Shown here: positions 36,366 to 47,534 of the stretch, one piece after another
Layout: each line of letters opens with the position of its first letter
Position numbering within the stretch: position 1 is the first letter of the stretch
Assembly (NCBI RefSeq): GCF_000263195.1
Contig: NC_018748.1
Span: 682,001 to 746,000 of the forward strand
Length of the DNA: 64,000 bases
Direction: 5' to 3'
From: Emticicia oligotrophica DSM 17448
Lineage (GTDB): Bacteria; Bacteroidota; Bacteroidia; Cytophagales; Spirosomataceae
Translations under genes and position numbers: made by a program
Notes under the pieces: generated by a model
Databases searched by the model: none
What the model was told of the DNA's origin: nothing
What the model saw: only the letters and a program-made list of their open reading frames with translations

Positions 36366-37436
36366 CTACTTTTTTATTCCTGTAATGACAGTTCCCACGG
36401 GCTTGCCATTTTCAAATTCATAACCCAATAACTTGGCTGCCGTTTTAGCAATTTGATTTTGGAATAATTGTCCTTCTTCTTTTACTTCTCCTAATGCTGG
36501 CGTGTCTGGCCCAATGGCTGCCATCCAAATCTGATAACAATCAGACACTTTTTGACCATGGCTTGTCCATTGCGATTTTACTTTATCACCTCTACCATGG
36601 TCAGTTAAAATAAGGAAAGTTGTTTTACCTTTATATTCAGGCGTTGATTGACAATATTTCCATAAATCGCCAATGAATCTATCGGCAGTATTCGCCGCAA
36701 AAAGATACTCATCATATTTAGCTTCATGGGCAAACTCATCAGTTTCATCAAAAGATAAAAAGAAGACCTTCGGCTTATTTTTCTTGATATATTCTTTAGC
36801 TAAATAATAGGTAATGAAATCATGACGGTCGCTTGCAAGACTTGGGTAGTTTTTCAAAATTTCATTCAAAAGTTCTTCTTTTTCAGTCAATTTATCTGCT
36901 TTCACTACATCTTTAGCAGCATTTACAGGAATTCCACTACGTTTATCGTTAATTATGTAAGGGAAAGCATCCCATGTAGTATAAGCCGCAACCTTTCCTT
37001 TTAATTTAGGCTGATTGTTTAGAAACTCAAGTACGGTGATATTTTCGTTATAATTTTTATCGTTCGAATTGATTTTATCATCGGCATACCCACTTAAAAT
37101 CTCATTATAGCCAGGATAAGAAAACCAATATGGATTCATGACATTCACCTTATTATTGTACCAACGATTACCATACAATTGTCCTTCTTTGGCAACCGTA
37201 TTCCACATAAATGGCATTAATTTTTGACGGCTTTCTTCTTTTGTTGGGGCGAAAAAGCTATTTTTTATTCTATTACGATTTCTGACAAATTTATCATCTT
37301 TCAAAATTGTGGTGTCAACTCCTCCAAAAAGTTCTTGCCAACGAAAACCATCAGTTGTGATAATAAAAACGTTTTCGGTTTTGTTTTGAGCAAAGACGGA
37401 AAGGCTCAGTAAAAGTAAAAAGAGAGTTTTTTTCAT
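36366..37436 (-). CDS. secreted alkaline-phosphatase-superfamily phosphatase/phosphodiesterase
   Basis: 356 residues with signal peptide KKTLFLLLLSLSVFAQ. Metal-ligand motifs of the nucleotide-pyrophosphatase/phosphonoacetate-hydrolase branch are seen: IITTDGFRW (Asp29), a candidate nucleophile region WFSYPGYNEILSG, LSFDETDEFAHEAKYD (Asp and His), LTDHGRG (Asp, His) and SHGQKV (His). It is periplasmic or extracellular. Its start overlaps the stop of the PhnZ-like gene by 4 nt, so the two are translationally coupled. It would supply or process a phosphorus compound for that enzyme. The substrate (phosphate ester, phosphodiester or phosphonate ester) is open. Confidence 0.85.
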   Translation of the reverse strand: MKKTLFLLLLSLSVFAQNKTENVFIITTDGFRWQELFGGVDTTILKDDKFVRNRNRIKNSFFAPTKEESRQKLMPFMWNTVAKEGQLYGNRWYNNKVNVMNPYWFSYPGYNEILSGYADDKINSNDKNYNENITVLEFLNNQPKLKGKVAAYTTWDAFPYIINDKRSGIPVNAAKDVVKADKLTEKEELLNEILKNYPSLASDRHDFITYYLAKEYIKKNKPKVFFLSFDETDEFAHEAKYDEYLFAANTADRFIGDLWKYCQSTPEYKGKTTFLILTDHGRGDKVKSQWTSHGQKVSDCYQIWMAAIGPDTPALGEVKEEGQLFQNQIAKTAAKLLGYEFENGKPVGTVITGIKK

Positions 37437-37993
37437 TGTTGAGTTAGATAGATGTTTATAATATCAAGGAAATGCTCTAATTGCGGTAAGGGCATATTTT
37501 CAACCTTGGCGGCTTCATCCCAGCGTCGCATTTTTATGATAAGTTCAAAATAAGGATTTTGTTCGAAATTTTTCGCTTCATTTTCGGTCATTCTCCCTCC
37601 TTGAAACATCAATGTTTGCTTACTGGCCTCTGAAAGAGCTTCGTAGTAATCTTCATCTAAGTAGGTCAAATATCGCTTAGCATTAACATGATTTTCGACT
37701 AAAATAGCTATTTTTTCACTAAAACCTCGTTCTCTAAGCCAATCAGCAGCTACCGATTCATGGTCTTTTCGACCATAAACTTCCATCAATTCTTCTTCAG
37801 TTTGAGCAGGAAATAAATGCCCAATATCGTGCAAAAAAGCGGCTATTTGTACTTCTTCATCGTAGCCTTGTCGTTTAGCCAAAATGGCTGCTTGAGCGGC
37901 ATGTTCGTATTGACTGATTTTTTCACCGTAATATTCATCATCTCCTTGATTAACGAAAAGTTGGCGAATTTCTGAAATTATTTTTTGAGCCAT
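37433..37993 (-). CDS. PhnZ-like HD-domain di-iron oxygenase
   Basis: 186 residues, the size of PhnZ (2-amino-1-hydroxyethylphosphonate dioxygenase). By my alignment from memory, all six iron ligands of PhnZ are present as His31, His55, Asp56, His78, His102 and Asp159. The PhnZ-specific Tyr and Glu in the Y-x-GE motif are Tyr21 and Glu24 (EYYGEKISQYEH). NHVNAKRYLT (Lys106), LSEASKQTLMFQGG and KMRRWDEAAK are the other hallmarks. PhnZ cleaves the C-P bond oxidatively to glycine and phosphate. It is cytoplasmic. It lies 81 bp after SusD, with a hairpin between, and 4 nt overlapped with the secreted phosphatase. No PhnY hydroxylase is in the window. Confidence 0.85.
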   Translation of the reverse strand: MAQKIISEIRQLFVNQGDDEYYGEKISQYEHAAQAAILAKRQGYDEEVQIAAFLHDIGHLFPAQTEEELMEVYGRKDHESVAADWLRERGFSEKIAILVENHVNAKRYLTYLDEDYYEALSEASKQTLMFQGGRMTENEAKNFEQNPYFELIIKMRRWDEAAKVENMPLPQLEHFLDIINIYLTQQ

Positions 37994-38021
37994 TAAATTA
38001 TCCTTTTGAATTAAACCAAAG

Positions 38022-38049
38022 AAAAGCGGAGCTAAAAAACTCCGCTTTT
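38022..38049 (-). terminator. hairpin between SusD and the PhnZ-like gene
   Basis: 10-bp arms AAAAGCGGAG / CTCCGCTTTT around an 8-nt loop, followed on the minus strand by a T-rich stretch. It may end most SusCD transcripts or attenuate read-through. A near-match to the -7 element (TTTCTTTG on the minus strand, 38017-38024) overlaps its far end, so the next two genes could have their own promoter. Confidence 0.65.
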
Positions 38050-38074
38050 AAAACTAAACCTATGATATGAATTA

Positions 38075-39670
38075 TTACTTCAATAACCATAATGAATCAT
38101 TGATATCATCTTTTCCACCAAACTGGCTATCAATAGCTGCTTTGTAATTGGTAGAATTTGTTGTACGCTCTGATAACGGATACTGCCAACGAATAGCAAT
38201 ACGGTTTGAGTTTCCATTACCAACACCTGCATAGAATTTAGGAAAGCCCGTACGTCGCCAGTTAAAATACGCTTCCATACCAGAATTCATGAAAAACGCC
38301 AAATACTTTTGAGTTAAAATCTGCTCTTGACCTTTAGCTGTTTTACCATCATATTTTACTGAAGTTTGAGCATAATATTTTTCAAAATCAAAATCAATGG
38401 TAAATGTAGCTAAATCAGCTGCATCACGTCCACCTGTTTTTGAGTAAGTCATGGTATTTGTACCATTTTTTACACCATAAAAATCCATTGAAGCCTGAAT
38501 ACCTTTTTTGTACCAAGTCTCAGCATCACCAGTTGCCCAACCTAGATGGTAAGCCTCAGCGATATTGAAACACATTTCAGGGAAGCCTACGATAAAAGTT
38601 GTTTCAGCAGTATAATTTCGGTAATAACGGAAACGATTTTGGAATGAATAAACACCCGGAGCATAGCCAGCACCATTATTACGGCCCGCTTTTTCACTCA
38701 TATCGGTTAAATCTTCAGCTGAAGATGCACCCACGTAAGCACTAAAATCGGAAGGTTTTTTGCCTGCTTTCAATTCAGCACCTGCAGGTTCGCAAGTAAT
38801 CATTACACGTGGGTCGTTTAGTAAAGATAATGGCTCAACATATGCCTTCGACATATTCTGACGTGTAGCATCAAAACCAAAGTTATCAGGATTTGAAGGA
38901 TACTTATTAAAATTATTGTAGGTATATTGTAAGCTTTCTGTCAAACTTGTAAACAAAGGATATTTAGTAGGATTTGACATCAATTCAGAAAAACGAGCTT
39001 TGATATTGAGGTCGCTATCCGTTTCTTTTTTGCTCAAAGCTACTAATACTCTCAACTTATATGCGTTTACAGCTTTTTGCCATTTACGCATATCTCCACC
39101 AAAATAAAAATCGCCAGAAACTGAAGTTTCACCTTTTGTAATTAAGGCCCCCATATTATCATTCGATTCATCTAACCATTTCAAGATTTGCACAAAAACT
39201 GCTTTTTGTGAATCATATTTTGGGGCGATGTTGTCGATACCTTTAAGTGCTTCACTCATAGGTAAATCTCCCATACGAACGGTCATTTCATAAAAGAAAA
39301 ATGCACGGAAAAATTTACCTAAAGCACTATAACCATTTACATCGGCCAAGCCTGCACGCTTAGCTTCCTCTTCCATTTTAATAACGTTTTTAAGCGTATT
39401 GTAATGGTTTGAGCCTGATGTCCAAGTATATTCGTTGGTTGCATAATAGTTATAATTTGAACAATAGAACTGATTCCAACGCATTTCAGCACTAAATGGA
39501 CGACCAATATTATTGAACATATCCGATTCTACTCCTTGAAGTACCAAAGAAGCAGGTACGTTCACTGGGCGGTTCGGGTCTTTTTCGAGTTCTTCGAAAG
39601 ATTTTTCGCAACTACTCAAGGTAAGAGCTGCAACTGCGAAAATAGCAGTGAATATTTTATTTATTTTCAT
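38075..39670 (-). CDS. SusD/RagB-family outer-membrane nutrient-binding lipoprotein
   Basis: 531 residues from the second Met (frame begins at 39685). This start gives a lipoprotein signal with lipobox LSSC. The mature N-terminus FEELEKDPNRPVNVPASLVL and the interior TPR-like helices (WQKAVNAYKLRVLVALS, FNIAEAYHLGWA) fit the SusD-like_2 subfamily, which is often linked to peptides or small solutes rather than to glycans. It forms the lid of the SusC channel encoded 98 bp upstream. Confidence 0.92.
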   Translation of the reverse strand: MKINKIFTAIFAVAALTLSSCEKSFEELEKDPNRPVNVPASLVLQGVESDMFNNIGRPFSAEMRWNQFYCSNYNYYATNEYTWTSGSNHYNTLKNVIKMEEEAKRAGLADVNGYSALGKFFRAFFFYEMTVRMGDLPMSEALKGIDNIAPKYDSQKAVFVQILKWLDESNDNMGALITKGETSVSGDFYFGGDMRKWQKAVNAYKLRVLVALSKKETDSDLNIKARFSELMSNPTKYPLFTSLTESLQYTYNNFNKYPSNPDNFGFDATRQNMSKAYVEPLSLLNDPRVMITCEPAGAELKAGKKPSDFSAYVGASSAEDLTDMSEKAGRNNGAGYAPGVYSFQNRFRYYRNYTAETTFIVGFPEMCFNIAEAYHLGWATGDAETWYKKGIQASMDFYGVKNGTNTMTYSKTGGRDAADLATFTIDFDFEKYYAQTSVKYDGKTAKGQEQILTQKYLAFFMNSGMEAYFNWRRTGFPKFYAGVGNGNSNRIAIRWQYPLSERTTNSTNYKAAIDSQFGGKDDINDSLWLLK

Positions 39671-39782
39671 TTTTTTGAAAGTCAATATTATTGAAGTGAT
39701 TCACATCTCCTTACCCTCAAAGCGGAACTTTAAAATCTTTCCTTTGATAAAAGGGTAAAGAGATATTATACTGTATCAATTA

Positions 39783-42700
39783 TTAAAATGTAAAGTTCAA
39801 ATTCACACCATAACGGCGAGTTGAAGGAGTTTGTAAGCCCGAACCGCCATCAGTTAAATATTGATTAAGGTCGATATCTTTCTTTTCAGCGAAATACAAT
39901 AAGTTTCTACCAACCACCGAAATCGTTGCATTTTTGATATTCTTACCAAACCATCTGTCAGGTAAAGTATAACCCAAAACTACTTCACGCAACATTCCGA
40001 AAGAACGACTCATAAGGTTACCTTCATCTGAATTGTAATAACGGCTTACATAATCTTGCACAAACTGTTTAGTAGTATTGGGTGCATATTTCAATTCAGC
40101 ATAATTAGTGATATTACCATCAGCATCGTACTTAATAGCTACGCCATTAGATACCACTACACCTTCACCAACGTAGGCTTTCACACCTAAATAATCTTGG
40201 TAGCGAGCCTCACCAAATTTGCCTGTAGTAGTCTCGATATGACGACCTCCACGGAAAGTTTGACGTTGGATATAATTTGAAATAACACCACCAATACGAC
40301 CATCAAATTGGAAACTTAAGTTGATGTTTTTGTAGTTGAATTTATTATTGATACCAAACACAAATTTTGGATTCACATAACCTAAGAATTGGTTAACTGG
40401 ATTGTAAATCGGACGACCAGAAGCATCGTTAATTATCTGACCATCTGGCGTTTTAGCGAATGCACGTCCGTAGAATTTATCTAATCTATCGCCTACTTTG
40501 AAGAAAGTATTAAGGTTTGTTACACCCGGGTAAATTTCTGTAAGCACCTCTTTGAAGGTAGAGTAGTTGGCTACGATATCCCAGCTAAATTTAGCTGTTT
40601 TGATTGGAGAACCAGTGATAGCTAATTCCCATCCTGTTTTCTTAGTCTTAATACCATTTACTAAAGCTGAGCTATAGCCAGATGCAGTAGATATTGGTAA
40701 AGAGAAAATTCTTGGACCTTCATTAGAAATGAAATGTGTGAGGTCGAAACCAAGACGATTTTTCAATACTTTGAAATCAAGACCAATCTCAGTCTGAGAA
40801 GTTGAACTTGGCTTTAAGTTAGGATTGTTCAAAGCTCCAGTAAAATAAGCTGATGGTTGGTTATTATAAGCAAATGGCGTAGAATAAACAGCAGCATTTG
40901 TATAAGCAGGGCCATCATAAGGCGAGTAATACTGTTCGCCATAACCTATTGGGTTACCATCACCCGTTAAGGCTGGTGTAGTACCGATTGTTGAGCGAGT
41001 CAAACCATCTTTTACGTTCGCATACGAACCACGAACTTTCAAGAAAGAAATAAACGATGGAACATTTACGTAGTCAGAGATAACCGTTGCAAGTGCGACC
41101 GAAGGATAAAAGAAAGTATTATTTCCAGACGGAAGCGTAGAAAGTTTATCTACACGACCCGTAGTTGAAACTGTCAATAAGTTTTTGTAAGAAAAGTCAG
41201 CCGAATAATATGCTGAATTTACACGCATTGCTGAAGCGAAATTGGCCGTACGAACTGGGTTGGATGAGTTATTGAAATTGTATAAACCCGGAACGTTCAA
41301 ATAATCTGTTGAGCCATATTGTGAATTATATTCAAAAGAACGAATATTAGCACCTGCCCAAATTTTTGTATTAAAGCCCGCAAAAATATCTTTATCGAAT
41401 TTTACTAATACATCGGTATTATTTTCGAATAGGTTTCTTCTGTCTTCACGGTAATCTCCTCTACGTTCGTCACGGCCATAAGCACCAGCCGAATAAGGCA
41501 TTTTTTCATTGCGGAATAAATTCCAAGTTGTAACCTGCGAACGAAGCGTTGCCTCTAAATAATCAGTAAACTTATAAGTCAATGCTGCTTGCCCAATGAT
41601 ATCAGTTTTATAATGTCCACGCAACCACTCATAACTCATGAAATATGGGTTATTATAGCGTTGATACTCAGCATAAATTTGTTGAATACCTTCTTTTCCT
41701 GGCTGCCAATAATTACGCATATCATCTACACTCCAGTCGGCACCAGCCCAAAGAGTCATGTTATAGATGATTGAGTTTGGACCATAATTGATATCAGGAA
41801 TATTTGGTGTGTATTGGCGATTGTATTGAAGATTAGAAGTAAACGAAAGTTTATTTGAAAATTTATAATCAGCAGCAACATTGAAGTTGGTAATATTCAA
41901 TTTAGTATTTGGAACAATACCACGTTGAGAAATCTGAGAAGTAGAGAATCTCAAATTGTACTTATCACCAGTTGACGAAACTGAAATATTATTAGTTGAT
42001 AAAATACCTGTTTGTAAGAAACGCTCTAAATTATCTTTACCACGAGCAGTCCAAGGCGTAGGAATTCTTTGTCCTGTTACTGGGTTGATAGGGCTATCGT
42101 ATTGTGGAATTAATTGACCTTCAAATTTTGGTCCCCAACCACCATCATAATCACCATCGTTCAAACCACCACCTTTACCATCAACAAAGGCATAACGACC
42201 GTGGTCGCCCGGGCCATATTCATCCTGAACTTTTGGAATTGCATAGAAACCTCTATCAAACATTGTAGATGAATTTACATCAACCGAAAAACCCCTTTTA
42301 TCTTTCGAACCACGTTTAGTAGTAATCAAAATAGCACCATTTTTACCACGGAAACCATATAAAGCTGATGCCGAAGCACCTTTCAATACTGAATATGACT
42401 CAATATCATCTGGACTGATATTCCAAGTATCAGAGTTAATTGGCACACCATCAACAACGAAAAGTAAATCACTATTACCTCGTAAAGAGATATTTGGCTT
42501 ACGAAGCATTTCTTGTTGAACACCCACAGTTAAACCAGCTACTTTACCAGCTAAAGCGTTAATTGCATTGGGTTCACGAGCCTTAATTGTAGAAGCTCCA
42601 TCTACACTCTGAATAGCCACACCAATTCGACGAGCATCTTTTTTAATACCAAGGGCCGTCACCACCACCTCATTGAGTGTTTTAGTGTCTTCCTGTAAAG

Positions 42701-43004
42701 CAATACTAATAACTGACTGATTGCCAACTGTTTTTTCTACAGTTGTGAAACCAATTGCTGAAAAAACTAATACCGAACGAGCCGAAAGATTAGATAATTT
42801 GTAATTACCTTCTGCATCGGTATTTGTACCTTGATTCGTTCCTTTCACAAGGACGCTCACTCCCGGAATGGCATCGCCATTAGGAGCAGTAATTTTACCA
42901 CTAACATTCTGATTTTGGGCATTGGCATACGTAACTGCCAATAGCATGCAAAACAAAATTCTGATTAAACCAGTAAATCTGGTTTGGCGTAGAGATTTGT
43001 TCAT
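39783..43004 (-). CDS. SusC/RagA-family TonB-linked outer-membrane receptor
   Basis: 1073 residues with a signal peptide ending TYANAQ. A carboxypeptidase-regulatory-like domain (about 30-115: GKITAPNGDAIPGVSVLVKG) is followed by the TonB plug (about 120-240: LNEVVVTALGIKKDARRIG, NSDLLFVVDGVPI, LKGASASALYGFRGKNGAIL) and a roughly 800-residue barrel ending GVNLNFTF. It imports ligands too large or too rare for porins. There is no ECF sigma/anti-sigma pair beside it and no glycan enzyme. Neighbours are a PhnZ-like enzyme and a phosphatase. Confidence 0.95.
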   Translation of the reverse strand: MNKSLRQTRFTGLIRILFCMLLAVTYANAQNQNVSGKITAPNGDAIPGVSVLVKGTNQGTNTDAEGNYKLSNLSARSVLVFSAIGFTTVEKTVGNQSVISIALQEDTKTLNEVVVTALGIKKDARRIGVAIQSVDGASTIKAREPNAINALAGKVAGLTVGVQQEMLRKPNISLRGNSDLLFVVDGVPINSDTWNISPDDIESYSVLKGASASALYGFRGKNGAILITTKRGSKDKRGFSVDVNSSTMFDRGFYAIPKVQDEYGPGDHGRYAFVDGKGGGLNDGDYDGGWGPKFEGQLIPQYDSPINPVTGQRIPTPWTARGKDNLERFLQTGILSTNNISVSSTGDKYNLRFSTSQISQRGIVPNTKLNITNFNVAADYKFSNKLSFTSNLQYNRQYTPNIPDINYGPNSIIYNMTLWAGADWSVDDMRNYWQPGKEGIQQIYAEYQRYNNPYFMSYEWLRGHYKTDIIGQAALTYKFTDYLEATLRSQVTTWNLFRNEKMPYSAGAYGRDERRGDYREDRRNLFENNTDVLVKFDKDIFAGFNTKIWAGANIRSFEYNSQYGSTDYLNVPGLYNFNNSSNPVRTANFASAMRVNSAYYSADFSYKNLLTVSTTGRVDKLSTLPSGNNTFFYPSVALATVISDYVNVPSFISFLKVRGSYANVKDGLTRSTIGTTPALTGDGNPIGYGEQYYSPYDGPAYTNAAVYSTPFAYNNQPSAYFTGALNNPNLKPSSTSQTEIGLDFKVLKNRLGFDLTHFISNEGPRIFSLPISTASGYSSALVNGIKTKKTGWELAITGSPIKTAKFSWDIVANYSTFKEVLTEIYPGVTNLNTFFKVGDRLDKFYGRAFAKTPDGQIINDASGRPIYNPVNQFLGYVNPKFVFGINNKFNYKNINLSFQFDGRIGGVISNYIQRQTFRGGRHIETTTGKFGEARYQDYLGVKAYVGEGVVVSNGVAIKYDADGNITNYAELKYAPNTTKQFVQDYVSRYYNSDEGNLMSRSFGMLREVVLGYTLPDRWFGKNIKNATISVVGRNLLYFAEKKDIDLNQYLTDGGSGLQTPSTRRYGVNLNFTF

Positions 43005-43087
43005 AAAAGATGATTATTTGGGTTTATGGTTCAGGCTTTCTGGATGAGTTGTTTATTTTATTATATGAAAGCCAGAATTTGACGCCG

Positions 43088-43095
43088 CAAAGGTC
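43088..43095 (-). promoter_or_regulatory. candidate -7 element GACCTTTG for susC-like gene
   Basis: The minus strand reads CTGACCTTTGCGGCG, 84 nt before the susC start. GACCTTTG matches TAnnTTTG in seven of eight positions. The same CTGACCTTTG core precedes the other TonB receptor gene (53860). Confidence 0.4.
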
Positions 43096-43246
43096 AGTAG
43101 TTAGTATAAATTGAATATGACCCAAGTTTTAAGCAATTGTGAAGAATCAGGGGCAAATATTAGCTTTTCGTTAAGAATGAATTTAGAGAATTGTTGGTAT
43201 AAAAAAATTATTTAATCGTGCACACACATGCTCAATTAATAAAGTT

Positions 43247-44041
43247 TCATAAATAAATTCCAAGTTTTTCCGTCCACTTTTCTAGTTTTTGAGCATACAC
43301 CTCACGATATTCTGCGATTAAAGAAGCATGTTTTTCTTGAAATTCCACTGTCATTTTTTTATTAATAGAAGCATCTCTCAGCACACATTCAAAATTATTC
43401 ACCCTTCCTACCAACCACTTGTAATCAATCGTTTGAGGCGTATTATATTTAAAATTAAACCATTCTCTTTTGTAAAATTCTACCGCAGTATCGTTGATAG
43501 CCAAGCCCTTTGCTATCCATTTTTCTTCTCGACAAAGTCCTTCATACAGAAAATACTCGCCCGAAAAAAGACCATTCTTTTTGGTGGCTGATGGCGTCGA
43601 ATAAAATAAGTAATAATCGGGTTGAACAATATCTACAAAAAACTTCTTGGCGTGCATGCGTTCAAGCCACTCTCCTACTGCCAAAGGTTTAGAAGAATCA
43701 ATAAAAAAATCGAAAACCAATTCAATGCCATCATATTCAAGCAAAAGAGCCACATGAAAACCCCAAGTAAGTAAACCATTGGGTGAAAGTTGGTTAGGGT
43801 CGGGTAATTGAATGGTTTGTTTTGAATTTTCTGAATAACGAGTTGGAGCATAAATCCATATCTTTTTGTGCTGAACCCCATAACTACGTAAAATAAGTGA
43901 AGCAAAATGGGTTAGATTATGGCAATTCCCCTGCTTGTATTCGTAGAGTGGAAATAGGAGAAATTTGAGTTCTTCAAAATAATACTCAAGATAATTATTA
44001 GTAATTCGCGAAAGTTGGGTATGTGTTTTGGGTAAAACCAT
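43247..44041 (-). CDS. candidate papain-like/protein-glutaminase-fold enzyme
   Basis: 264 residues, no signal peptide. YKQGNCHNLTHFASLIL (Cys40), LTWGFHVALLLEY (His96) and ELVFDFFIDSS (Asp111) give a Cys-His-Asp order and spacing like protein-glutamine glutaminases and transglutaminase-like folds. I cannot assign an activity from this alone. It lies 242 bp upstream of susC on the same strand and divergent from the phosphonatase-like gene, with 175 bp between starts. It may therefore belong to the phosphonate locus or be a bystander. Confidence 0.5.
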   Translation of the reverse strand: MVLPKTHTQLSRITNNYLEYYFEELKFLLFPLYEYKQGNCHNLTHFASLILRSYGVQHKKIWIYAPTRYSENSKQTIQLPDPNQLSPNGLLTWGFHVALLLEYDGIELVFDFFIDSSKPLAVGEWLERMHAKKFFVDIVQPDYYLFYSTPSATKKNGLFSGEYFLYEGLCREEKWIAKGLAINDTAVEFYKREWFNFKYNTPQTIDYKWLVGRVNNFECVLRDASINKKMTVEFQEKHASLIAEYREVYAQKLEKWTEKLGIYL

Positions 44042-44216
44042 TTTCGTTTTTTTAGCAAAAATAGGTTAGCAAAAAACGAAGATTTCTACCAAATTGATTA
44101 AGGATTTGTTAATTGTAAAGTCCTAATATTTGCTTAACAATTTGTTTATATTTTGTTTAAATCCAACTAACTTTAAATGGTTTACTTTGTCGAGCAATCA
44201 AACTAATCAGCAAAAA

Positions 44217-44957
44217 ATGTCAGCAATTAAATTAGTGGTTTTTGATATGGCGGGTACAACCGTACAAGATAAAAAAGAAGTTGAAACTTGCTTTGCACGT
44301 GCTTGTGCTGAAACTGGCCTTCAAGTATCCGATGAGAGAATTTTAGCCTTACAAGGTTATTCAAAAGTTGAAGTTTTCAAACTTTTATGGGATGAACGTA
44401 TCGGACAATCTCATCCTGAATACAATGAAAATGTAGTGTATTCATACGATTATTTCCGCATGATACTCGAAGACCATTACAAAAATTCTCCGATTCTACC
44501 AACAGAAGGTTGTTTAGAAATCTTTGATTTTCTTCGAAAAAAAGACATAAAAATTGCTCTCACCACGGGTTTTTATCGCAAAGTGACTAATATTATTCTC
44601 GAAAAACTGGGCTGGCTCGATGGCTTAGAATATAACTATTTGAATATTTCTGGCAAATCGGTAATTGATGTTTCAATCGCTAGCGATGAGGTAGTGAAGG
44701 GACGCCCCGAGCCATACATGATACAAAAAGCCATGAAACTTTTAGGTATTGAGAGTAAGTCTGAAGTAATCAATATTGGAGATACTCCTTCTGACCTTCA
44801 ATCGGGAGTTAAGGCAGGATGTAGAATGTCTTTGGGCGTGGTAAATGGCACACACACGCGTGAACAATTACAAGTTATTCCAAACGATGGTTTGCTTGAT
44901 TCGGTCTTAGGATTAAAAACTATCATCGAAAATGCCTCAATTTTAAACGAAGAATAG
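44217..44957 (+). CDS. phosphonatase-like HAD hydrolase (PhnX-like)
   Basis: 246 residues from the ATG at 44217 (the frame extends 29 codons upstream without family similarity). Motif I is FDMAGTT (Asp10), the DxAGT form seen only in phosphonatases. The cap domain holds QGYSK with Lys50, at the place of the Schiff-base lysine of phosphonoacetaldehyde hydrolase. GRPEPYM carries the Arg that replaces the usual HAD lysine, and NIGDTPSDLQSGVKAG is the acidic motif. It should cleave a 2-oxo-ethylphosphonate. Members of this TIGR03351-type clade go with an FAD oxidoreductase rather than with PhnW, as here (31 bp downstream). Confidence 0.88.
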   Translation: MSAIKLVVFDMAGTTVQDKKEVETCFARACAETGLQVSDERILALQGYSKVEVFKLLWDERIGQSHPEYNENVVYSYDYFRMILEDHYKNSPILPTEGCLEIFDFLRKKDIKIALTTGFYRKVTNIILEKLGWLDGLEYNYLNISGKSVIDVSIASDEVVKGRPEPYMIQKAMKLLGIESKSEVINIGDTPSDLQSGVKAGCRMSLGVVNGTHTREQLQVIPNDGLLDSVLGLKTIIENASILNEE

Positions 44958-44988
44958 CCTCAATTTACCATCTTTATCACTCTTTTCA

Positions 44989-46134
44989 ATGAAAAATTTT
45001 GACCTTATAGTCGTTGGTAGCGGGATAATGGGGGCTTTTCATGCCTATCATGCAGCTAAACTCGGCAAAAGTGTATTAATCCTCGAAAAAGACAATTTCC
45101 CGGTTGGTTCAACGGTGAGAAATTTCGGACAAGCAGTACCTTCTGGTTCATCAGGTAGGTGGTTTGATTATGGTCGCCGAAGCCTTGAAATTTACCAAGA
45201 TATTCAACAAAAATTTGATATTTCGGTTAGAAATAACGGAACCGTGTATGTTGCCTCTGATGATACTGAATGGACATTAGCTAATGAACTTTATGCCATT
45301 CATCAAAGTAAAGGCTATAATTGCAGCCTTCTTTCTAAAAGGCAGTGCTTGGAGCAATATCCAGAACTAAAAGCAGATTATGTAAAGGGAGGCATTTATT
45401 ACCCTAACGAAGTCAGTATAGAACCTAATTTGTTGATTTACAGAATCTTAGATTATCTTCAAGAAAATCATAAAGTTGCTTACAAAACTAATGCTACCGT
45501 CATTGACTGTCAAGAGGTAAACGGACGTGCGGAAGTTCTAACTGCCAGTAAAGAAAAGTTTACTGCTGATAAAATCATTATTTGTAGCGGATATATCTTC
45601 AATTTATTGTATCCAGAAGTCTATGCACAAAGTGGACTCATTGTTAGCAAATTACAAATGATGCAGACTGTTCCGTTGAAGAATATTTCATTAAAAGGTA
45701 ATATTCTCACTGGACTTTCTATTCGTAGATATGAGTCATTTGAGGAGTGTCCATCTTATAAAGATAGTACAACTCCAGAGCATTATACAGAACTAAAAAA
45801 ATGGGGCATTCATATACTTTTTAAGCAAGCAATTGATGGTTCAATTATCATCGGAGACTCGCACGAATATGCACCAGTAGGGAAAACCGACGAATTGGGT
45901 TTCGATACAAAAGAATATATCAATAAACTCATGATTAAGGAGGCCGAACGAATCGTGCATTTTCCTGTAAATCAGATAGCTCGTACTTGGGCTGGTTTTT
46001 ATGCACAACACCCAAATGAGATTTTTGAACATACTATTTCTCCCAATATCCATATTTTTACGGGTATTGGTGGCAAAGGAATGACTACCAGTGCTGGTTA
46101 TGCCGAACAAAATATTCAGCAGTTGTATTGCTAG
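44989..46134 (+). CDS. FAD-dependent oxidoreductase of the phosphonatase-linked (TIGR03364-type) family
   Basis: 381 residues. The FAD loop is VVGSGIMGAFHAYHAAKLGK, followed by LEKDNFPVGSTVRNFGQ, and the C-terminal FAD segment is FTGIGGKGMTTSAGYAEQ. This is the DAO fold that oxidises amines. It begins 31 bp after the phosphonatase-like gene and matches the family known for this exact partnership. The expected job is oxidative removal of the amino group of an aminophosphonate, giving the aldehyde that the HAD enzyme cleaves. The actual substrate (AEP, hydroxy-AEP or an N-alkyl form) is not determined by sequence. Confidence 0.85.
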   Translation: MKNFDLIVVGSGIMGAFHAYHAAKLGKSVLILEKDNFPVGSTVRNFGQAVPSGSSGRWFDYGRRSLEIYQDIQQKFDISVRNNGTVYVASDDTEWTLANELYAIHQSKGYNCSLLSKRQCLEQYPELKADYVKGGIYYPNEVSIEPNLLIYRILDYLQENHKVAYKTNATVIDCQEVNGRAEVLTASKEKFTADKIIICSGYIFNLLYPEVYAQSGLIVSKLQMMQTVPLKNISLKGNILTGLSIRRYESFEECPSYKDSTTPEHYTELKKWGIHILFKQAIDGSIIIGDSHEYAPVGKTDELGFDTKEYINKLMIKEAERIVHFPVNQIARTWAGFYAQHPNEIFEHTISPNIHIFTGIGGKGMTTSAGYAEQNIQQLYC

Positions 46135-46136
46135 AG

Positions 46137-46210
46137 ACAACCTTGTAGAGACGTAATATATTACGTCTCTACAAAATGAAATAACAATTGTACCACATCT
46201 CGAAGGTTGT
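46137..46210. repeat. nested palindrome between converging genes
   Basis: A perfect 32-bp palindrome (arms TTGTAGAGACGTAATA and complement, 46143-46174) sits inside a wider 8-bp inverted repeat ACAACCTT / AAGGTTGT (46137-46144 and 46203-46210). It lies between the FAD oxidoreductase and the DUF5690 gene. It can act as a terminator for both and has the form of a mobile REP-type element. Confidence 0.8.
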
Positions 46211-46223
46211 GCCACAATTACTT

Positions 46224-47534
46224 TTATCCAATCGGATTATATTCAGATTCTTCTTGTGGCGAAACCTTCCACCACAATTTTCCTTTAAGATATTTATTTG
46301 AAAAGTAGAATAGTTGAAGCACAAGCAGCGTAAAGCAAACCATTGAAATAATATAACTAAAAGTGCTGAGAATATTCAGAAAAGATATTTTTCTCAAGAA
46401 AAACTCTCTATAAAATAGCAAAATAACACTTCCCAGATAACCGACCGAGTCACAGATATATACCAAAAAACCTACGTTTCCCCGAGCCTTGAAAAGAGCA
46501 ATTAAGCGTTCAAATACTACTGTTTGAATGAGTAAATAAGGCAAGAATAAGCCAATTCCAAGACTTACCATCCAAATTTTAGGGCTAATTAATTGCTGTT
46601 CAAACGCCCACGTACTTCCACCACAGAGCATCACGGCTAAAATCATCATACCTGAAAAAGTAAGATATGAGTGAAAATTATTTTTTATAAACGCATTGAG
46701 AGCTATCAAGCTAACAACTACCAAACCAATACTCGTTTCAACCTTTGAGAAAATAGTTTTATTAAATTGGGGGTCAATTTCTCGCCAAACTTCAATGGCA
46801 AAATTATCTCTAAAATCACGCATTGTTGCTAAAAGTAAATAAGTACCTACGAAGCAAAGCAGACCAAAGCCAAATTCTTTCATTATTAAGCTTTTATCGG
46901 TTTGATTCATGGCCGTACGCTCACTTCTTAGTTGCAAATCTTCGGCATTAGGAGCAGGAATTTGTGCCAACATCCACACAAAAAATAAGAAAAAAGGCAA
47001 AAAGATAAGTCCGATTACAAATGGTAAATTAAACTCGGACAAATGGAAAGTTTCTTGAAGATGCAAATAAATTGTTTTGAGTACACCGGAGGTCATTACT
47101 AAATTTAAACTTAAGCCGAGAGCCAAAAATTCGGTTAGTTTTCGCCCCTCTAAAAAACTAAAAATTACCCCCCAGACCATTCCCAGAGGTAAACCATTGA
47201 GAAATAAAAAAATAAAATTATATGGAAACGGAACCGCCGCAAATGCCAATAAAGCCGCTTCCGCAAAAGCTATTAGGCATATAATCAAGCCGATACGTTT
47301 TTTATCTTTTAGTTCGGCAATGACCTTAATTCCAATTACTTTCGATAACATATAGCCAAATACCTGCGAAATAATCAGAATACTTTTATAGCCCATTCCC
47401 CAAAGTTTGAAATTTTCATATAATCCTGTTGTGAATGGCTTACGAAAGGCATACATACAAAAATAGGCCCCAAAAGCGGCAATAATACACCATAAAACGA
47501 GCAAAACCTCTGACTTTTCAAGTAGTTTTTTCAC
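46224..47534 (-). CDS. DUF5690-family MFS-type transporter
   Basis: 436 residues with about twelve membrane segments. The first, ALLWCIIAAFG-like stretch, then AYFCMYAFRKPFTTGLY, resembles the start of UhpC/GlpT organophosphate transporters (MFS). The N- and C-terminal halves are joined by a polar loop (APNAEDLQLRSERTAMNQTD). DUF5690 proteins are Bacteroidota-specific with unknown substrate. It converges on the phosphonatase/oxidase pair. I infer that it may be the inner-membrane importer of the phosphonate locus. Confidence 0.75.
   Translation of the reverse strand: MKKLLEKSEVLLVLWCIIAAFGAYFCMYAFRKPFTTGLYENFKLWGMGYKSILIISQVFGYMLSKVIGIKVIAELKDKKRIGLIICLIAFAEAALLAFAAVPFPYNFIFLFLNGLPLGMVWGVIFSFLEGRKLTEFLALGLSLNLVMTSGVLKTIYLHLQETFHLSEFNLPFVIGLIFLPFFLFFVWMLAQIPAPNAEDLQLRSERTAMNQTDKSLIMKEFGFGLLCFVGTYLLLATMRDFRDNFAIEVWREIDPQFNKTIFSKVETSIGLVVVSLIALNAFIKNNFHSYLTFSGMMILAVMLCGGSTWAFEQQLISPKIWMVSLGIGLFLPYLLIQTVVFERLIALFKARGNVGFLVYICDSVGYLGSVILLFYREFFLRKISFLNILSTFSYIISMVCFTLLVLQLFYFSNKYLKGKLWWKVSPQEESEYNPIG

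Follow-up and report, generated by a model that had tools for sequence, protein, structure and literature searches.

In a 64,000-nucleotide stretch of the Emticicia oligotrophica DSM 17448 genome (contig NC_018748.1, positions 682,001 to 746,000; hereafter the window), we examined positions 36366-47534, where a SusC/SusD pair lies among genes resembling those for the breakdown of aminophosphonates. Judged from the sequences and from their neighbourhoods in other genomes, this region is very probably a dedicated aminophosphonate (ester) utilisation locus.

The region holds eight genes (Table 1). Seven of them, encoding SusC, SusD, a PhnZ-like HD oxygenase, a secreted alkaline-phosphatase-superfamily (ALP-like) phosphoesterase, a phosphonatase-like (PhnX-like) HAD hydrolase, a flavin adenine dinucleotide (FAD) oxidase and a DUF5690 membrane protein, had been named in a first-pass annotation and were all recovered with the same coordinates and strands; the eighth, a 264-aa PF18626 gene, had been overlooked. 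The SusC, SusD, HD and ALP-like genes follow each other in this transcription order on the minus strand, with a 4-base overlap between the HD stop and the phosphatase start. The PhnX-like and FAD genes, 31 bases apart, lie on the plus strand, divergent from the PF18626 gene, and the DUF5690 gene converges on this pair. An alternative TTG start of the PhnX-like gene, at 44130, is likewise open. The PF18626 gene lies upstream of SusC on the same strand, between SusC and the PhnX-like gene; it is found in 10 of the 41 neighbourhoods centred on HD in the family (the window among them), is kept mainly within the window's genus and is probably a genus-level passenger. A hairpin in the gap between SusD and HD resembles a terminator or a processing site, and the region holds nine hairpins of this kind where shuffling predicts 8.0, a count that is not significant. 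Scans of the region for promoters and terminators likewise gave totals close to the shuffled expectation.

Table 1. Genes and hairpin at positions 36366-47534 of the window, with the model matches that support them.
Feature	Coordinates	Strand	Support
Secreted alkaline-phosphatase-superfamily phosphoesterase (ALP-like), 356 aa	36366..37436	-	PF01676 26.2 bits, weak
PhnZ-like di-iron HD oxygenase, 186 aa	37433..37993	-	TIGR03276 216.3 bits (cut-off 214.6)
12-pair hairpin in the SusD-HD gap, terminator- or processing-like	38022..38049	-	Pattern scan
SusD-like surface lipoprotein	38075..39685	-	PF12771 209.5 bits (cut-off 27), E 9.9e-62
SusC-like TonB-dependent outer-membrane porin	39783..43004	-	TIGR04056 489.7 bits (cut-off 368.25)
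PF18626 (Gln_deamidase_2) protein, 264 aa	43247..44041	-	Pfam E 1.3e-12
Phosphonatase-like HAD hydrolase (PhnX-like)	44217..44957	+	TIGR03351 177 (cut-off 218.9), TIGR01422 95 (cut-off 220)
PbfD-type FAD amine oxidase	44989..46134	+	TIGR03364 366.8 bits (cut-off 285.1)
DUF5690 polytopic membrane protein, candidate aminophosphonate carrier	46224..47534	-	PF18943 481.2 bits (cut-off 25)

Predicted Carbon-Phosphorus Enzymes

Among solved chains, the HD protein is closest to PhnZ (4mlm, E 9.2e-40) and then to TmpB (6npa, 2e-29). The H...HD...H...H...D iron ligands and the YxxE loop have been described for PhnZ and TmpB (PMC8177086; here and below, statements on published work refer to the accessible parts of the cited papers). 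The residues looked for are all present in the window's protein (Y21 and E24 of the loop, H31, H55, D56, H59, H78, H102, K106, S124, Q131 and D159), and the glutamate that contacts the substrate amino group is kept. Of the 129 aligned sequences, 126 retain all 12 checked positions, the three exceptions being low-scoring homologues from one genus; these counts and those for the PhnX-like protein include some sequences twice, since the genomes G015, G016, G024, G044, G050, G068 and G299 also contribute to the loci of named genomes described below. In genus g21, low-scoring TIGR03276 relatives (L040, L050 and L051) have lost iron-ligand and substrate residues and still lie beside an XRE-cupin regulator gene; they are perhaps a regulatory form or a dead remnant.

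In its iron ligands and YxxE loop, the HD protein resembles the PhnZ of the PhnY*-PhnZ oxidative pathway for 2-aminoethylphosphonate (AEP). The window's cluster differs from that pathway by having no PhnY* partner, and (R)-1-hydroxy-AEP (hydroxy-AEP) would have to come from outside. The Emticicia genome encodes four PhyH proteins; their best score with a PhnY model was 35.5 of 500 (MPhHdxlPhnY), and no AEP-PhnY* model was among the matches, so that a PhnY* for AEP in this genome keeps a small probability.

The best solved match of the PhnX-like protein is phosphonoacetaldehyde hydrolase (2iof, E 1.9e-11), and the alignment brings the DxAGTT motif and the cap lysine into register. The position at which two chains of this hydrolase differ (K in 2iof and R in 2ioh) corresponds to K50 of the window's protein. 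Among 109 aligned sequences, D10 is conserved in 108, A12 in 107 and K50 in 108. We take D10 to be the nucleophilic aspartate and K50 the Schiff-base lysine, and an alanine two residues past the nucleophile presumably marks phosphonatases.

The FAD gene is the sole TIGR03364 match above the cut-off in the Emticicia genome and, though TIGR03364, belongs to a branch that shares about 30% identity with the other form found in Bacteroidota. The first-pass annotation had regarded the TIGR03351/TIGR03364 pair as a recognised combination proposed for hydroxy-AEP or a related substrate. The description as a proposal is outdated, as PbfD enzymes, one of them annotated TIGR03364, have been demonstrated to produce phosphonoacetaldehyde by oxidation of N-methyl-AEP and AEP (PMC10590968). 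With this family chemistry published and the residues present here, a PbfD/PhnX route acting on AEP or N-methyl-AEP is highly likely. Because PbfD acts on these two compounds, the HD and PbfD/PhnX routes would most likely serve two headgroups. The window resembles the PbfD2-PhnX pathway of Mariniblastus fucicola (PMC10590968) in having an FAD oxidase and PhnX without PhnW, and differs from it by the distinct FAD branch, a PhnX-like protein below the cut-offs, and the added SusCD, DUF5690 and HD.

Replacement by Other Aminophosphonate Genes

The best evidence for the function of the locus is the replacement of its genes, for enzymes and carrier alike, by others of aminophosphonate metabolism. 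L082 lacks PhnX and the TIGR03364 enzyme, and PhnW (score 485 against a cut-off of 400.8), phosphonoacetaldehyde dehydrogenase (665 against 635.65) and the phosphonoacetate hydrolase PhnA (496 against 407.55) sit between DUF5690 and HD-ALP-SusD-SusC. Genus g32 has no HD; there, PbfA, the hydroxy-AEP ammonia-lyase (730 against 525), lies beside PhnX, FAD, a PF01663-type phosphodiesterase and DUF5690. In L064 and L066, PbfA above its cut-off accompanies PhnX, FAD and DUF5690, with no HD. In the 13 genomes with a PbfA at least 75% identical to that of L064, the start of the gene lies at a distance of 1.3-1.6 kb from DUF5690 and of 2-8 kb from FAD; HD was found in none of the 13. In L130, the gene row reads SusC, SusD, phosphodiesterase, PbfA, ALP, DUF5690, FAD, PhnX and regulator. 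L135 and L137 carry FAD, PbfA, PhnW, PhnA, the dehydrogenase and a GlpT/PgtP-like carrier, with no DUF5690 in the stretch examined; the PhnW, PhnA and like labels in L135, L136 and L137 were assigned by similarity to the proteins of L082. Outside the Bacteroidota, a Pseudomonas fluorescens locus (L204, 4843-10555) encodes PhnT2, PhnU2 and PhnS2, followed by a TIGR03364 FAD oxidase and a TIGR03276 HD protein, all above their cut-offs and with no PhnX label in the 20 kb examined.

HD and PbfA were never found together in the 66 loci holding either (56 with HD and 10 with PbfA), and among the matches listed for at least 80 HD loci of named genomes, the only PbfA label is a 25% match. A similar alternation is on record for phnWX and phnWAY clusters, which carry phnZ or pbfA and never both in one cluster (PMC8154272, Table 1); here it is seen in Bacteroidota, together with SusCD and DUF5690, and one genus holds both genes at separate places.

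Taken with the conserved residues, the exchange for PbfA makes hydroxy-AEP the likely substrate of the HD protein. It might instead use a different 1-hydroxyphosphonate, for instance hydroxymethylphosphonate or a trimethylated compound: the cluster has no PhnY* partner, none of the genome's four PhyH proteins matches a PhnY model well, and relatives with other substrates exist (TmpB and PhnZ1). We consider this quite improbable, as the TmpB and hydroxymethylphosphonate (PhnZ1) models score only 142 and 136 against cut-offs of 300, PhnZ is the nearest solved chain, the glutamate contacting the amino group is retained, and the separation from PbfA, itself a hydroxy-AEP enzyme, agrees with the published table.

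Linkage in Spirosomataceae and Beyond

In a sample of 150 Spirosomataceae genomes, Emticicia included, TIGR03276 was found in 112 at E 1e-3 (52 above the cut-off), TIGR03364 above its cut-off in 122 and DUF5690 in at least 134. A SusD with at least 54% identity to that of the window is present in 102 genomes, and 85 of these 102 copies lie within 20 kb of HD or FAD, a count that leaves out four contig-end SusD fragments and one FAD match below the cut-off; it becomes 87 of 106 when the four fragments are added. This identity line was chosen after viewing the list, at the gap between 47 and 54%. Only one of 20 less similar copies at E 1e-60 (34-47% identity) lies within the same distance, and these 20 are not all the SusD paralogues because at most nine candidates were scored per genome. 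Where a genome has both HD and a SusD of at least 54% identity, the two are within 20 kb in 81 of 88 cases, and HD and FAD are within 20 kb in 66 of the 104 genomes having both. The 41 HD-centred family neighbourhoods (the window and 40 others) contain SusD in 32, SusC in 30, PhnX in 24, DUF5690 in 24, FAD in 23 and the ALP type in 15; all HD-centred samples were selected for HD and are informative only for the presence of the other genes. These linkage counts indicate two modules, SusCD-HD-phosphoesterase and PhnX-FAD, that are usually joined.

A sister type of SusC/SusD pair, with SusD 41-47% identical to the window's, was seen in L219, L221, L222 and L223; after it comes a protein that looks secreted and resembles protein-tyrosine phosphatases (PF13350, from a scan of L221 alone). 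This arrangement is perhaps another phosphorus-related SusCD system.

At the level of the phylum, TIGR03276 is rare, with 12 matches at E 1e-30 in 296 genomes, three of them within Spirosomataceae. Each of the nine HD loci outside the family holds members of the set (SusC in 8, SusD in 7, DUF5690 in 8, PhnX in 6 and the TIGR03364 FAD oxidase in 7). A scan of named genomes gave at least 80 HD loci, of which 74 are titled Bacteroidota; five from Pseudomonas and one with a Gammaproteobacteria title were excluded from the counts. Counted among the matches listed, as are all figures for these 74 loci, and with many of the loci on short contigs, SusC and SusD both occur in 51, PhnX, FAD or PhnA in 60, DUF5690 in 49, and SusC, SusD, PhnX, FAD and DUF5690 all together in 31. 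The corresponding numbers for the 48 loci with at least 20 kb are 38, 38, 31 and 25. In five of the 74, the greedy open-reading-frame caller dropped the HD label despite HD having been found by the search. The gene set recurs, among the matches listed, in records titled Cytophagales, Chitinophagales and Sphingobacteriales, and four Mucilaginibacter loci (L166, L175, L182 and L197) repeat a divergent layout, with FAD, DUF5690, PhnX and an XRE-cupin regulator on one side and HD, SusC, SusD, a PF04185-type phosphoesterase and a glycerophosphodiester phosphodiesterase (GDPD) on the other. The check proposed in the first-pass annotation, whether SusC/SusD pairs of this kind are steadily linked with PhnZ-, PhnX- and TIGR03364-type genes across Bacteroidota, thus gave a positive result.

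A chance neighbourhood of unrelated genes might be considered, given the many SusD-like genes that family genomes carry. By our own arithmetic, chance would put a given SusD gene no more than 20 kb from HD in about 1% of cases for a genome of 5 Mb, against the 81 of 88 observed, and the set recurs in three orders. The linkage counts therefore refute a chance grouping, which we regard as extremely improbable.

DUF5690 and the Phosphoesterase

The predicted structure of DUF5690 (predicted local distance difference test, pLDDT, 92.4) has 12 helices of at least 20 residues. R31, K32, K65, R80, R131, R206, R239 and R343 are invariant in 39 sequences, with R31 sitting after helix 1 and R239 in helix 7. 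GlpT binds phosphate through arginines of helices 1 and 7. It is reasonably likely that DUF5690 is an aminophosphonate carrier, and in this the locus would resemble those of the 2-AEP transporters AepP, AepXVW and AepSTU, where a dedicated transport gene adjoins the AEP enzymes (PMC8316502). AepP is a major facilitator superfamily carrier related to GlpT (PMC8316502), whereas DUF5690 shows no detectable sequence relation to a GlpT-like profile. We found no paper naming DUF5690 in the open-access literature.

The ALP-like phosphoesterase begins with a Sec signal, as judged by eye. The best PDB matches of its AlphaFold model (pLDDT 87.3) are LtaP/LtaS, sulfatases and NPP enzymes, and searches of PDB sequences with this protein were uninformative. 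Across the loci, seven families occupy the phosphoesterase slot (ALP, PF01663, PF00149, PF04185, GDPD, PhoD and PHP), of which at least the ALP and PF01663 types share one superfamily; no obvious signal was spotted by eye in the PHP proteins, which may reside in the cytosol. This variety points to a substrate with an esterified phosphonate whose alcohol partner varies by species, and the presence of GDPD suggests glycerol esters in some species. Import of a phosphonate ester by SusCD is, in our assessment, fairly likely.

Counter-Evidence and General Phosphate Scavenging

Several observations weigh against a dedicated aminophosphonate locus. HD and FAD are apart in 38 of the 104 family genomes having both (10 with more than 20 kb between them on one contig and 28 on different contigs), which corrects the first-pass annotation in that the linkage is modular. 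Some SusCD orthologues, for example in genus g32, have none of the tracked genes nearby, and six of the 74 HD loci lack SusD, PhnX, FAD, DUF5690 and PhnA among the matches listed. SusCD accompanies only three of 13 further TIGR03364 loci outside the family; DUF5690 was found in nine of these genomes within the stretches examined and PbfA in four. The receptor genes of about 950 aa in L128, L131 and L132 were recognised by eye only. A single clade of phosphonate-linked SusD was rejected: a quick tree of 63 linked and 28 other rows (reduced from 101 and 31) requires 13 changes of label, where shuffles require 24, and has two main linked lineages; several of its 'unlinked' rows are orthologues with phosphonate genes elsewhere in the genome or beyond the contig end. 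A strict exclusion of HD and PbfA per genome was also rejected, since 11 genomes of genus g31 (Runella) carry the two genes, each at its own place. The PhnX-like protein falls under both curated cut-offs and is therefore called phosphonatase-like and not filed as PhnX. As for DUF5690, an hhalign comparison with a GlpT-like profile of two sequences detected no relation (probability 1.5%), and its profile had no match among PDB sequences. A second Emticicia copy of DUF5690 (L099, 9722-10990) has no tracked phosphonate genes beside it, and further second copies outside such clusters exist, so the DUF5690 family is broader than an aminophosphonate function.

Some of these observations would fit general organic-phosphate scavenging, in which SusCD and the phosphatase handle ordinary phosphoesters and the phosphonate enzymes are mere neighbours under shared phosphate-starvation control. 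Besides the SusCD orthologues without phosphonate genes nearby and the 10 of 13 additional FAD loci without SusCD, it would account for the many kinds of phosphoesterase in one slot, and Flavobacterium clusters of this general kind have been proposed to scavenge phosphodiesters (PMC8115612). Against it stand the swapping of carbon-phosphorus enzymes for other carbon-phosphorus enzymes in L082, L064 and L130, the closeness of SusD to HD (20 kb or less) in 81 of 88 genomes, and the Pseudomonas locus, where a 2-AEP ATP-binding cassette transporter stands beside FAD and HD and no SusCD label was found. We therefore consider general scavenging unlikely and an aminophosphonate locus the better account of the gene set.

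Substrate Source and Regulation

No PhnW-type transaminase was found in the 150 family genomes at E 1e-60. Phosphonate synthesis as the source of the substrate was rejected, as phosphoenolpyruvate mutase is above the cut-off in none of the 150, with two weaker matches. Together, these two results imply that the substrate is probably imported and not self-made. PbfD2 has been suggested as a stand-in for PhnW (PMC10590968), and in this family PbfD would probably play that part.

A conserved XRE-cupin regulator of about 192 aa is present in many clusters (L064-L068, L070, L078-L081 and L084-L086), and none lies beside the window's genes. Such a dedicated regulator suggests control by substrate rather than by phosphate, and would fit a locus that serves nitrogen or carbon supply, or the removal of inhibitory hydroxy-AEP, instead of phosphorus supply. 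The routes would also yield glycine, acetaldehyde and either ammonia or methylamine, and growth inhibition of E. coli by racemic hydroxy-AEP has been discussed (PMC8154272). Scavenging, however, fits both the phosphoesterases and the investment in a SusCD pair, and no regulator of this kind adjoins the genes of the window. We find a role other than phosphorus supply doubtful.

Discussion

The locus is probably a SusCD-served 'phosphate utilisation system' (PUS) specialised on carbon-phosphorus compounds, which would take its phosphate from the carbon-phosphorus bond. In the proposed mechanism, SusD and SusC would capture a phosphonate-bearing molecule (a phosphonolipid headgroup, its glycerol ester or a piece of phosphonoglycan) and pass it to the periplasm. 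There, the secreted alkaline-phosphatase-superfamily enzyme would cut the ester to release free AEP, N-methyl-AEP or hydroxy-AEP, which DUF5690 would move through the inner membrane. In the cytoplasm, the PbfD-type oxidase would convert AEP or N-methyl-AEP to phosphonoacetaldehyde, to be split by the PhnX-like enzyme into acetaldehyde and phosphate, and the PhnZ-like HD protein would split externally derived hydroxy-AEP into glycine and phosphate with no need for PhnY*. The broadest form of this proposal, in which Bacteroidota own a widespread, modular aminophosphonate-ester locus with DUF5690 as a new inner-membrane carrier family, SusCD capturing phosphonolipid or phosphonoglycan esters, and PhnZ-type oxygenases using environmental hydroxy-AEP without PhnY*, is in our view slightly favoured.

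The window shares with the Flavobacterium PUS loci a SusCD-like pair beside phosphomono- and diesterases (PMC8115612); SusCD and a phosphoesterase are both present in the window, and a tracked phosphoesterase occurs in 50 of the 74 Bacteroidota-titled loci among the matches listed. No PhnZ-like HD, PbfD-PhnX pair or DUF5690 is named in the accessible part of that paper, whereas these genes form a recurring set in Cytophagales, Chitinophagales and Sphingobacteriales. The first-pass annotation had been aware of no described phosphonate system with a SusCD porin and this set. Flavobacterium PusCD loci next to phosphonate-degrading enzymes (PMC8115612) and PbfD-phnX clusters without phnW (PMC10590968) are, however, already in print, and the novelty is lower than first thought. 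In the accessible parts of two further papers, PusCD is mentioned merely in passing (PMC8812569) and 'phosphonate' is used only of predicted biosynthesis clusters (PMC10752948). Among the matches listed, a search of titles and abstract openings in the open-access literature found no description of the HD-PbfD-PhnX-DUF5690 set with SusC/SusD or TonB. In summary, the enzymes and SusCD phosphorus loci are known, and what is new, as read from these comparisons, is the conserved architecture, the logic of the swaps and DUF5690 as a candidate aminophosphonate carrier.

If the proposal is correct, a SusCD pair would gain a substrate class other than sugars, in a form that is directly testable, and a domain of unknown function would acquire a function. 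Bacteroidota would be able to use carbon-phosphorus compounds bound in lipids or glycans. Information on the abundance of hydroxy-AEP has been called limited (PMC8154272); the locus would imply that this compound is a real environmental nutrient, common enough for about three quarters of the family (112 of 150 genomes) to retain a gene of its own for it.

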